Part shown: positions 1,131 to 6,311 of the stretch, in pieces
How positions within the stretch are numbered: the first letter of the stretch is position 1
How the letters are laid out: each line of letters begins with the position of its first letter
Assembly (NCBI GenBank): GCA_016219225.1
Contig: JACRBX010000217.1
Coordinates: 1 to 36,902 of the forward strand
Direction: 5' to 3'
Length of the DNA stretch: 36,902 bases
Origin: Deltaproteobacteria bacterium
Lineage (GTDB): Bacteria > Desulfobacterota > RBG-13-43-22
Program-made: the position numbers and the translations under genes
Notes under the pieces: model-generated
What the model saw: only the letters and a program-made list of their open reading frames with translations
Databases searched by the model: none
What the model was told of the DNA's origin: nothing

Positions 1131-4100
1131 GTGACGGCTAAAGCAACAAGTCCAGCGTCGAGTGGACCGGCCGGTAGCCACTTCGAGGGGCAGGTGGGTG
1201 CTTACTACCTGCTCTCCATGTTGGCGGGCTCGGATCCACGTGGCCTGCCCGGCACGGCGATAGATCGCATTGAGTTCCAACGGGCGGCCGAAGACCGGCC
1301 GCTGGACGATGTCATCGTACATGCCCACGATACACGCGGAAATCCCGCCGTTCTTGAGATCCAGGTAAAGAGAAGCATCACTTTTTCACCCGGCGATTCG
1401 GTTTTCCGTTCAGTCGTGGGCCAGATTGTCAAGACCTCGCACAGGCGGGACTTCTGGACCATCCGCTATGAACTTGCGATCGCGATCGCTCGAACGTCTC
1501 GCAAGATCGAGGGCGCCTATCAGGACGTTCTGACCTGGGCACGACAGTTAAGTGACGCAACGAATTTCATGGCCCGGATTGATCGGCCGGGCTCCGCCAA
1601 CGCGGACATGCGCAACTTCGTGTGCACCTTCAAATCAAATCTGCACGACATCGGTTCGCCTGACGATATCGAGACAGTCTGGCGGTTACTGCGTAAGCTT
1701 CAGATCCTCGTCTTCGACTTCACCACCCAAGGCTCAGCGTCCGAGGAACTCGCGAAAGAACGAGCCGTCCACGCCCTTCACCCGAACGATACGTTGCGGG
1801 CTGGAAACCTATGGACGGCGCTGGTCGAGCTCGCGCTGCAGATCGCGGTGAGCGGCGGTGACCGCAATCGCGATGGACTGATCGAGGACCTTAGGCGTCA
1901 GTCGTTTCGCCTTGCAGGAGACCGGCGCTATACATCCGCACGTGCGATTCTCGAAGAGGCTTCCCGCAACGCGCTTGCCGACATCGGCAATCGGGTCGGC
2001 GACGTGATGTTGACTCGGCACGAGCGTATCACCGCCGTTCGCGCTGCCCTTGACAATGGCCGTTACGTCGAGATACGCGGCGACGCGGGCGTTGGCAAGT
2101 CGGGGGTGTTAAAGCATTTCGCCGTGCAGGGCGCTATAGAGGCGCGCGTTGTCGTGCTCAGCCCTGGCCGAACGACACCAAAGGGGTGGATTGCAATGCG
2201 GGCGGTCCTCGGGTTCGATGGCACAGCTCGCGATCTACTGACTGATCTCGCGGGCGACGGTGGAGCAGTTCTCTTTGTCGACAATCTAGACTTTTTCGAC
2301 GACCAAGAGCGTAGAACCGTTGTTGACCTTGTCCGCGAAGCTGCGAGCGTCCCGGGTTTCTTCGTGATCGCTACGGCAAGGAGCAACTTCGGAGTAGAGG
2401 AGCCGGATTGGTTACCGCCCGACGCACTCAACCGTTTGGGCCGCGCTGAACCTATCGTGATTGGCGAACTGAACGAAACCGAAGTTGACGAGATGCGGCA
2501 CGCCGCTCCAAGGCTCGCACCGCTGCTGGCCGATACTCACCCGGCACGGGACGTCACCCGAAACCTCTTCCGCCTCTCCCGCCTTGCAAGTCGGCCAGGG
2601 GATGAACCTATCCCGCGCACCGAAGTCGACATGGCCGAGCAGTGGTGGCAGACAGCCGATGGCAGGCGCGATAGCGACCACCGGGATCGTGCCAGGCTGC
2701 TTAAGACTTTGGCGGAACAGACGCTCTCGTCGGCTGAACCACTGGACATAGCTGATCGCCCGGCGAGGGTGGTCGATGCTCTAATCGCCAGCGACACGTT
2801 GCGCGACCTGGGGAACGATTGCGTCGCGTTCCGCCATGATGTCCTTCGCGAATGGGCGATTGCCAACCTTCTTCATTCCGAGCCGACGACCATCGAGCGC
2901 TTGCCGCTCGCGCGCCCTGCCTCAGCGTCTTTGGCGAGGGGTGTGGAACTCGCCGCGCGTATGGGCCTCGAACGTGCTGTCGATAGCACGCCTTGGTGGT
3001 TGTTCTTGGTTCGTCTAAGCCGCGAGGGTACACATGGTTCATGGCGCCGGGCGGTGTTGCTGGCTCTCGTTCGCTCCGAGATCGGCCCCGAACTGTTGAC
3101 ACGGACGTCTGGCCTTCTGCTCGCCAACCGCGCAAGCATGCTCCGAGAGCTCATCCGAATCGTGAGGGCAGTCGACGTAGAGCCAGCCTCAAAGTTGTTC
3201 GTTGGCATCGGGGCTGACCCGGCGATGATCCCGGCGAGTCTCAATGTTCCGAGCGGACCGTCATGGTCCCGGCTGATCAGCTGGCTGCTCAGCCTCGGGC
3301 GGACCTTGCCGGTCGCGGCAATTCCTGACGTGGTCAACCTTTACACCGCGTGGTCTATCGGAATGCTCGGTCACGATCCTCTGACTCCATTGCTGATCCA
3401 GTGGCTATATAGCTGGTTGACTGAGATTGAGACGGCCCGAGAAGCGGAAACCTTCCCTGTTCGACATGAGCCGTTTGGTGGCGAACTTGAATACGACCAA
3501 ATCGGATCACTGGAGTCCGACCTCCGCACCGGCTTTCTCTTATTTTGTAATCGGAGGCCCGCGCTCGCTGTTGAGTACTTGCGATCGTTGGGTCAGCGCC
3601 GGCGTAGTAAAAATGCCATACGTAGTATCCTGGAGTTTCGCGGGTCGATCGCCCAGGCTGCCCCCGCAGAGCTTGCGGAGCTAACCGCGACGGCTTTGAT
3701 TCCGAATCGTCGGCTTGACGAGCGGCACCACCGCCTCGAGTTCGGGGAGCCGTTCGATTTTCTCGACCACCAGTTTTACCCGGCGTCCCCGGCGCAAGGA
3801 CCGTTTTTTGAACTCCTTAGCCATGCCCCACAACACGGTTTATCGCTGATCCATCGGCTCGTCGACCACGCGATTTCATCCTACAACCGTGGCCGGGAAT
3901 ACGGCGGCGATGCGATCACGATCTCGTTTTCTAGTGGCGGTCGGGTTTTTCCGTGGATAAGATCATATGCATGGTCACGGGATGGCGCAGGGGGCCCCTT
4001 CTGTGTAACATCTGCCCTCATGGCTCTTGAGGCCTGGGCTCACCACCGGATTGAGTCAGGAGAGGTCTTCGTCAAGGTGCTCGCCGACGTGCTCGGCCCG

Positions 4101-6311
4101 CCCGGCTCTCCAGCGGCTTACCTTTTGGTTGCAGTCGATCTCCTGCTTTCCCATTGGCCGAAATCACGTGAGGCGGTGATTCCTTTTCTGGCTTGCCCAG
4201 AGCTCCTTTGTATAGACCGTGAGCGATATGTGCACGACAACTTCGAGTACCCGGATATCTTCGGCCTCAAAGCTCTCGAGAAGGAGCCAGTCGGCGCAGT
4301 TAGCCTCGAAAGCCTGAAGATGCGCGCTTCTCGACGGTTCATGCTCGATCAGCTTCTCGGTAAATACGCAGTATTCGGGCCTGTCGAACTGCGGGATACG
4401 CTGACTGCACTATTGAGCGGCGCAGCCGCAAGCCTCGGACCGCCCGACGAGCAATCGGACTTGAGGGATCCCGCCTTCATAGCTATTCACGCACTCAACC
4501 TTGTCGATCCTAATAATTGGATTGAGGTGTCTATCGCGCAGACTGATGGTACACAGGAAACGGCCTACCAGTACGTCCCGCCCGAGATCGAAAATCAATA
4601 CTTCGCATCTCTGCAAGAAGCCTCGCGGGACAAATTCACGGACAGTAACATGCAGGTCGCCCTCAGCTTGGCACTGGAAGACCCGTCCCGCTCGTCACCC
4701 GAATTTGTTGCGGCGGCGGTTGAATGGACGAAAAGCGCGGCGGCCACGCGGAAGAATGAAAACCACGACGAGGACCGGATGCGGGAACAGGCTGTCATCA
4801 CTGCGGCGATGATTACAATGCGCGATGGCGAAACCGAGCGACGCGCCAAGCATGCTGAGTGGGCGCGCAGCATCTTCGCCCAAGCTCTCCTGACTGGAAA
4901 AGACTCAGTCCACCGATTTCGATCCGGACTCCGTTACAATCCCATCGCGATTGCCTTCGTTGGAATGATCTACTTACTAAAGGATCGTGCCACTCCTGGC
5001 GACATACGCGCCCTCCTCGAAGTAGCTGCCCGTGACGACCCTGCCGCAGCTCATGGATTTGGCGTGGCATCCACCACGCTATCCTCCATTGACGAACGCT
5101 TGACTCTGGCGGTGCTGCGTTGCGCCTTTGCGGCCTGTATCAGAGGGAAGCGCGAGTGGGATCTCCCTGAAGAAGAGATTGCTGCGAATACAGAGCGCCA
5201 CAGGGTATGGATCCAATCGACCGTCAATGCTGAACTGACATGGCTTGCTGATGAAGGTCCTGAACCCGATTGGCCGAGCTTCCCGTCGGAAACGGTCCGA
5301 CCGCGAAGGGGTATTCGTCTACCGAGTAAACGAGAGCAGCAGAATACGTCCGCACCTCAGCACTCTCGACCAGACAAATATGTAGACCACCAAGCCGCAG
5401 CACTCTGGCTTAGAAACTTTATGGGGCTCGTCGATGTAGGCCAGAGGCCTTGGGTAAGAGAAATCGTTCGGAGCTATTCCCCTTGGACTTATGCGGCGAA
5501 CGGCGTTGGGCTGAACTCGTACGAGCAAGTCGACCATTCGCCGAGAGAATGGAACGATGCCTACTTCGACTTACTGGCCCACTGCCTACCCGGACTTGAG
5601 TTGCCGGAGATTGAGCAACTCGCATTGGCGCCGATCGGTTCGCTACCCGACGAGCCCTTCTTCGACGTAGTAACGCCATTCCTAAAGAGCGTTGATGTCG
5701 TCTATTTCAATGACTTTGACCTACAGGAGTCAATCGCGATTAGCATTCGGTCCACGATCGCCAACCGGTTGATGGCAAGCAACGGCTGGCGGAGGTTAGG
5801 GGGCAACCGATCCGGATCTATCGAGATGCATATCGGACCAGCGATCGCCGTTCTCTTTTTCAACGATTACAGCTTTGTCCAGCCTGCCAAATGTTACTTG
5901 CTGCCAAAGGGCATTGATCGGCTCCACTCCTTCTTGCCCGTGCTGGAAAGACTGGTCGACAGCTGTCCTTCGCTTTTTGTCGCAATCGTGACACTCAATC
6001 TATTAGAAGTGTCTCCAAGGTCGGTGCATCTGCCATTTATCGTACTATCGGCTAAGACTTGGATAGAAAGCTTCCCCGATGATAGCGACTTCTGGGTGGA
6101 TCACAATATCGGGCGCCGTGTGTGCGTGTTAATCGAAGAAATTCGGCGTCAGCAGCCGGCTCTGCTTAATCCAGGCAATCCTGTACGTTTCGATGTGGAT
6201 CGATTGCTCGCGGCGCTAGTTAGCTTAGGAGTTGCGGATGCCAGGCGACTGGAAGAAACGCTCGACGGACGATCGGGAAGCGAGGCGGGAGGTACCTCGA
6301 CTTTGTCTTGA
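1131..6311 (+). CDS. Very large STAND-type NTPase with N-terminal PD-(D/E)XK-like nuclease, putative antiviral (Avs-like) protein
   Basis: This is a 1726-residue protein starting at GTG 1131, six bases after GGAGGTGA. Residues about 15-110 resemble Mrr/Cap4-type (DUF4297-like) nuclease domains: an opening helix with Glu20 (HFEGQVGAYYLL), Asp59-Asp60 in LDDVIV, and Glu76-Gln78-Lys80 in LEIQVK, fitting a D...(E/Q)xK site. A P-loop NTPase follows, with Walker A GDAGVGKS at 317-324, Walker B VLFVDNLD at 380-387 and a sensor-like ATARSNF at 414-420. The remaining 1200 or so residues show no motif I recognise and are probably helical sensor repeats. In known Avs and related STAND defence proteins, a C-terminal sensor binds a phage protein, the NTPase oligomerises and the nuclease cuts DNA. 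That role here is inference from architecture. Codons are richer in CpG (CGC, GCG, TCG) than in neighbouring genes, which suggests horizontal acquisition. No signal peptide or membrane segment is evident. Confidence 0.8.
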   Translation: MTAKATSPASSGPAGSHFEGQVGAYYLLSMLAGSDPRGLPGTAIDRIEFQRAAEDRPLDDVIVHAHDTRGNPAVLEIQVKRSITFSPGDSVFRSVVGQIVKTSHRRDFWTIRYELAIAIARTSRKIEGAYQDVLTWARQLSDATNFMARIDRPGSANADMRNFVCTFKSNLHDIGSPDDIETVWRLLRKLQILVFDFTTQGSASEELAKERAVHALHPNDTLRAGNLWTALVELALQIAVSGGDRNRDGLIEDLRRQSFRLAGDRRYTSARAILEEASRNALADIGNRVGDVMLTRHERITAVRAALDNGRYVEIRGDAGVGKSGVLKHFAVQGAIEARVVVLSPGRTTPKGWIAMRAVLGFDGTARDLLTDLAGDGGAVLFVDNLDFFDDQERRTVVDLVREAASVPGFFVIATARSNFGVEEPDWLPPDALNRLGRAEPIVIGELNETEVDEMRHAAPRLAPLLADTHPARDVTRNLFRLSRLASRPGDEPIPRTEVDMAEQWWQTADGRRDSDHRDRARLLKTLAEQTLSSAEPLDIADRPARVVDALIASDTLRDLGNDCVAFRHDVLREWAIANLLHSEPTTIERLPLARPASASLARGVELAARMGLERAVDSTPWWLFLVRLSREGTHGSWRRAVLLALVRSEIGPELLTRTSGLLLANRASMLRELIRIVRAVDVEPASKLFVGIGADPAMIPASLNVPSGPSWSRLISWLLSLGRTLPVAAIPDVVNLYTAWSIGMLGHDPLTPLLIQWLYSWLTEIETAREAETFPVRHEPFGGELEYDQIGSLESDLRTGFLLFCNRRPALAVEYLRSLGQRRRSKNAIRSILEFRGSIAQAAPAELAELTATALIPNRRLDERHHRLEFGEPFDFLDHQFYPASPAQGPFFELLSHAPQHGLSLIHRLVDHAISSYNRGREYGGDAITISFSSGGRVFPWIRSYAWSRDGAGGPFCVTSALMALEAWAHHRIESGEVFVKVLADVLGPPGSPAAYLLVAVDLLLSHWPKSREAVIPFLACPELLCIDRERYVHDNFEYPDIFGLKALEKEPVGAVSLESLKMRASRRFMLDQLLGKYAVFGPVELRDTLTALLSGAAASLGPPDEQSDLRDPAFIAIHALNLVDPNNWIEVSIAQTDGTQETAYQYVPPEIENQYFASLQEASRDKFTDSNMQVALSLALEDPSRSSPEFVAAAVEWTKSAAATRKNENHDEDRMREQAVITAAMITMRDGETERRAKHAEWARSIFAQALLTGKDSVHRFRSGLRYNPIAIAFVGMIYLLKDRATPGDIRALLEVAARDDPAAAHGFGVASTTLSSIDERLTLAVLRCAFAACIRGKREWDLPEEEIAANTERHRVWIQSTVNAELTWLADEGPEPDWPSFPSETVRPRRGIRLPSKREQQNTSAPQHSRPDKYVDHQAAALWLRNFMGLVDVGQRPWVREIVRSYSPWTYAANGVGLNSYEQVDHSPREWNDAYFDLLAHCLPGLELPEIEQLALAPIGSLPDEPFFDVVTPFLKSVDVVYFNDFDLQESIAISIRSTIANRLMASNGWRRLGGNRSGSIEMHIGPAIAVLFFNDYSFVQPAKCYLLPKGIDRLHSFLPVLERLVDSCPSLFVAIVTLNLLEVSPRSVHLPFIVLSAKTWIESFPDDSDFWVDHNIGRRVCVLIEEIRRQQPALLNPGNPVRFDVDRLLAALVSLGVADARRLEETLDGRSGSEAGGTSTLS

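Follow-up and report, generated by a model that had tools for sequence, protein, structure and literature searches.

We analysed a window of 36,902 nucleotides, by which we mean the whole stretch of deltaproteobacterial DNA under study, with attention to one large gene on its forward strand. An earlier note had read this gene as a PD-(D/E)XK nuclease, a STAND NTPase and a long C-terminal sensor in a single protein, and this architecture is borne out by model topology, invariant residues and homology to Avs4. The features of the locus, with their evidence, are as follows.

215–391, + strand: partial DUF4160 gene, the first part of the domain being absent from this frame
399–647, + strand: intact DUF2442 gene
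1114–1126 (position approximate), + strand: Shine-Dalgarno sequence ACGGAGGTGAAAA 5’ of the GTG start (read from the sequence)
1131–6311, + strand: whole gene of the Avs4-related STAND receptor, 1726 amino acids, GTG start (ORF, homologues, alignment, dN/dS)
1131–1940, + strand: predicted nuclease module, residues 1–270, with D59, D60, Q78 and K80 (structure model, 21-member alignment, PADLOC)
1968–2390, + strand: STAND NTPase, residues 280–420, with Walker A at 317–324, Walker B at 380–387 and a sensor-like TAR at 415–417 (Pfam, alignment, profile)
2622–2885, + strand: helical and winged-helix part of the STAND module, residues ~498–585, with HD569–570 and W575 (alignment, profile)
2886–4910, + strand: Avs4-homologous part of the alpha-solenoid sensor, residues ~586–1260, strongest at 840–1090 (profile, PADLOC, model)
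4911–6308, + strand: C-terminal third of the solenoid, residues ~1261–1726, colinear with Avs4 in the full comparison (profile-profile)

The gene has a good Shine-Dalgarno sequence, GGAGGTG, just 5’ of its GTG start and is single-copy in the host genome. Close full-length homologues of the protein (69–72% identity) are found on contigs labelled Syntrophobacteraceae, Proteobacteria and Nitrospirota, and dN/dS against three close homologues is 0.10–0.25 in all segments, the supposedly motif-less C-terminus included. From these differently labelled full-length homologues and this constraint it follows that this is a real and intact gene, kept by purifying selection and spread horizontally, at full length, across several phyla. 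It is richer in GC than its neighbours, with 58–62% in the first half and about 52% at the 3’ end, most of the following genes having 50–54%.

Nearly all database records of homologues are annotated "hypothetical protein". The nuclease module is present in 7 of 395 genomes of the host phylum, and one clear Avs4, split over contigs, was found among 297 genomes of that phylum. No homologue of the STAND protein was found in phage records or in a first scan of viral contigs; an alignment-based scan of viral contigs found two, of which one has a P4-type integrase nearby. A single-contig genome (G160) carries a 5.97-kb block containing little but the STAND gene twice, at distant sites (L073 and L074) and 99.98% identical, a pattern suggesting that the gene was recently transposed or duplicated as a unit.

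Genomic setting of the gene and its homologues

The DUF4160/DUF2442 pair upstream of the STAND gene also adjoins the Polaromonas homologue (L018, 6691–7538). On the 3’ side the window contains a CoA-transferase gene and other metabolic genes and no defence island, and synteny with relatives of the same family ends just short of this CoA-transferase gene. Comparison of the junction with these relatives showed no empty site, and no direct or inverted repeats flanking the STAND gene as an insertion unit were found.

The defence context that the earlier note had proposed to look for exists, as a mobile or defence setting, for several homologues but not in the window, whose following genes are ordinary metabolism. 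The Sinorhizobium homologue lies near caspase, pYEATS, Type I R-M and abortive-infection genes, and the Polymorphobacter homologue near the PADLOC candidates PDC-S39, M65A/B, M28B and M06B. Other homologues have TIR-type and AbiEii genes (L006) or MNT/HEPN genes (L009) nearby, while further neighbours include ImmA/IrrE genes, integrases, IS elements and transposases; some loci are in metabolic settings. Many homologues are carried on large plasmids beside transposases, integrases and toxin-antitoxin genes, as would be expected if the protein served conflict between plasmids or integrative elements rather than phage defence. We consider this unlikely, since the nearest characterised relative is an anti-phage receptor, the order of nuclease, STAND module and solenoid speaks against it, and anti-phage genes adjoin several of the loci; anti-phage defence is the reading we prefer.

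No conserved partner gene stands directly beside the homologues, their shared neighbours being transposases, integrases, toxin-antitoxin and R-M genes, and the STAND protein therefore probably acts alone. A scan of four downstream neighbours found no PDC-M54 partner.

Several adjoining genes were recorded in passing. A gene at L006 13160–14494 shares 4 bases with the end of a close homologue; its match to CAP12/Pycsar TIR is weak, falling slightly below the Pfam cut-off, and it is possibly a second effector. A gene of 1554 amino acids without a PADLOC match (L017, 15290–19954) lies directly 3’ of the Azospirillum homologue, between IS66 copies. A homologue on Cupriavidus necator pHG1 is broken, with only its C-terminal part left (L019, 7809–9128); it directly follows an IS66 transposon in a defence region, some 8 kb away from a gene annotated as Avs1c. 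Related HTH antitoxin-like ORFs stand beside three members carrying the nuclease module (L006 7190–7573, L071 6268–6618 and L069 8766–9065).

The N-terminal nuclease module

An AlphaFold2 model of residues 1–600 has the PD-(D/E)XK topology that had been predicted for the region of residues 1–120, with the core elements H18–32, E42–49, E60–67, E72–79, H90–103 and E112–120 and pLDDT mostly 80–93 across residues 20–240. In the model D59 and D60 are found where the second strand begins, Q78 and K80 where the third ends, the positions expected for PD-(D/E)XK nucleases. An alignment of 21 nuclease modules shows no variation at Q50, D59, D60, K80 and D196, and Q78 is kept in at least 90%. Model and alignment together give the alpha-beta-beta-beta-alpha-beta core with an acidic residue and (E/Q)xK, which places the module in the PD-(D/E)XK superfamily as a predicted nuclease. 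The motif first proposed was D59-D60 followed by E76-x-Q78-x-K80; its other four residues are invariant among 14 full-length members, but position 76 varies (E/Q/R/S/A), so that the third motif is (Q)xK and not ExQxK.

The module matches no Pfam family, PF14130 (Cap4) and PF04471 (Mrr) included, and current annotation consequently misses the nuclease. A search of the PDB with the nuclease profile alone found no solved relative. With the N-terminal model, Foldseek returned Avs4 first (2.3e-8), Cap4 chains at about 2e-5 and many AAA+ ATPases, the latter through the NTPase part. The module thus resembles the CBASS effector Cap4 in its predicted fold but has no sequence match to the Cap4 family. 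Profile-profile comparison gave probabilities of 0.4% with the Avs4 nuclease, 0.2% with Cap4 and 0.1% with Mrr, in a test with small comparison sets that is itself insensitive, as Cap4 against Mrr was also negative.

Two PADLOC profiles do recognize the module. PDC-M54A, a profile without a curated cut-off, matches residues 11–387 (E=5.8e-16), that is, the nuclease and the start of the NTPase, but covers only the first quarter of the protein and is itself a putative candidate. DUF626_VIII, whose name hints at a retron component, matches 8 of the 21 module members (best 1.2e-21). The system had been called a candidate undescribed one, which is only in part correct: PADLOC already lists the N-terminal half as the putative candidate PDC-M54A. 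We found no paper on PDC-M54. The PDCs are candidates from guilt-by-embedding and are mostly untested (PMC12988326).

Relationship to Avs4

The Walker A and Walker B motifs are in place as first read, with G317, G320, G322, K323, D384 and D387 invariant in the 14-member full-length alignment; Walker A from G317 to S324, the end of Walker B and the winged-helix residues HD569–570 and W575 are all invariant or nearly so. The protein falls short of the Pfam gathering scores of STAND, NACHT and AAA models, the best being AAA_16 (18.9 of 32.6 bits), with nSTAND_NTPase5 at 15.2 of 34, while some homologues match NACHT (best 8e-7). Walker A, Walker B, a winged helix and the order effector, NTPase, sensor are all present, as in a STAND receptor. 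The roughly 1200 residues that followed the Walker motifs had been read as free of recognisable motifs and as a possible new phage sensor. They contain the winged-helix signature and a long segment homologous to the Avs4 sensor.

In sequence searches of the PDB this homology was found by family profile only, the single sequence giving nothing useful. The profile matches EcAvs4 (8dgf) with E=2e-23 over residues 277–766 and 864–1090, Avs2 being second at 0.001. Against three Avs4 or Avs4-like sequences, profile-profile comparison gave 99.9%, aligning columns 279–1715 with 169–1572, and 11 of the 14 full-length members match the PADLOC Avs4 profile (best 1.4e-23). A model of the sensor, residues 540–1726 (1187 residues), is almost wholly helical with beta hairpins at about 928–941 and 1130–1148. 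Its top two Foldseek matches are Avs4 chains bound to the portal of phage PhiV-1 (1.5e-16 and 5.5e-16, TM about 0.48/0.40), followed by a match at 1e-6, importin-type solenoids being ten orders behind. Both structure models were built on shallow alignments with mean pLDDT of 66–68; that of the C-terminal model, 66, is moderate, and fine detail is therefore not readable from it.

The window protein is thus an Avs4-related STAND receptor whose NTPase, winged helix and sensor core are homologous to those of Avs4 (AVAST type 4; NF041815, PDLC02169). Both are encoded by a single large gene with an N-terminal nuclease effector, and STAND NTPase, winged helix and long alpha-solenoid are homologous over residues ~279–1260 and colinear to the end. 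They differ in that the nucleases show no detectable sequence relation, Avs4 homology beginning only at residue ~270, in the core just about 16% of residues are identical to those of EcAvs4, and the C-terminal third has diverged. The earlier note could not place the protein in Avs1–5; it is related to Avs4 after all, but is not an Avs4 by the curated cut-off.

We consider it very improbable that we have here a full Avs4 which the profiles score poorly. The homologous NTPase and sensor would fit, but the protein reaches only 32.8 of the 1500 bits required by NCBIfam, between its nuclease and that of Avs4 no relation was detectable, and in a tree of the core the proteins of Avs4 proper stand in a 100/100 clade of their own. 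Because it fails both the curated cut-off and comparison of the effector, the protein is not to be filed as Avs4, yet its mode of action is very probably that of Avs4.

Phage portal protein is our leading guess for the trigger, at just short of an even chance, since Avs4 has been solved bound to portal and its sensor is both homologous to that of the window protein and similar to it in structure. Avs triggers do vary, Avs5 sensing JADA and Avs1–4 terminase, portal or Ksap1 (PMC12931631). As the last third of the protein, compared alone, is not significantly similar to Avs4 (0.6% profile-profile probability), the trigger may differ, and it is quite possible, if somewhat below an even bet, that a receptor of the same class reads a non-portal signal, be it a different phage protein or some change in the host. 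Such a reading overlaps with our best explanation, differing in the trigger alone; colinearity of the whole solenoid with Avs4, by far the best structural match, argues against it.

A nuclease module shared by different receptors

Modular N-termini have been described in general for the Avs class. A 1065 amino acid protein from a genome of the same genus (G047; L069, 5364–8561) combines the nuclease module (281 bits) with an Avs2-like STAND body (Avs2 profiles, 8.5e-26), whereas the body of the window protein is Avs4-like. A Hymenobacter protein carries the window-type nuclease on an Avs4 body (382 bits with PADLOC Avs4). The module also heads a 560 amino acid protein in Agrobacterium and a 1180 amino acid protein (G271; L070, 8266–11808) encoded within a Type I R-M operon, where its gene has hsdS and hsdR as immediate neighbours on either side; as a whole this 1180 amino acid protein matches no Pfam or PADLOC family. 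Avs4-like bodies with other N-termini occur in Haliscomenobacter and Calothrix. The nuclease module is thus a portable effector common to several different receptors. No name was found in the literature for the pairing of window-type nuclease and Avs4-like body.

In the core tree, Avs4 proper groups with Hymenobacter and Haliscomenobacter, and carriers of the window-type nuclease stand on both sides of its clade; the Hymenobacter branch is long and its exact place consequently unsure. A more far-reaching reading, which we hold to be doubtful, is that of a separate Avs lineage, sister to Avs4, in which a new nuclease family would move as a cassette among Avs2-like, Avs4-like, R-M-embedded and DUF626_VIII proteins and the diverged arm would sense a phage protein new as an Avs trigger.

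We think it probable that this one gene constitutes an anti-phage system: a STAND receptor of the Avs4 lineage with a distinct, Pfam-orphan PD-(D/E)XK effector. Direct support comes from the integrity of the gene, its domain order, the conserved catalytic and Walker residues, the homology of NTPase and sensor core and the shared nuclease module. During infection the C-terminal alpha-solenoid would bind a conserved phage protein, releasing the ATP-bound NTPase to oligomerise and so bringing the N-terminal nuclease domains together. The assembled nucleases would then cut DNA and stop the infection, probably through cell death or arrest (abortive infection). Oligomerisation, nuclease activity and an abortive outcome are likely from what is known of Avs biology.

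An uncharacterised defence candidate is now tied to the Avs4 receptor lineage, and a single nuclease module is borne by different STAND bodies, so that killing domains are swapped between receptors. This raises the questions of whether an Avs4-like arm still reads portal at about 16% identity, and whether Avs effectors and sensors are freely exchangeable.
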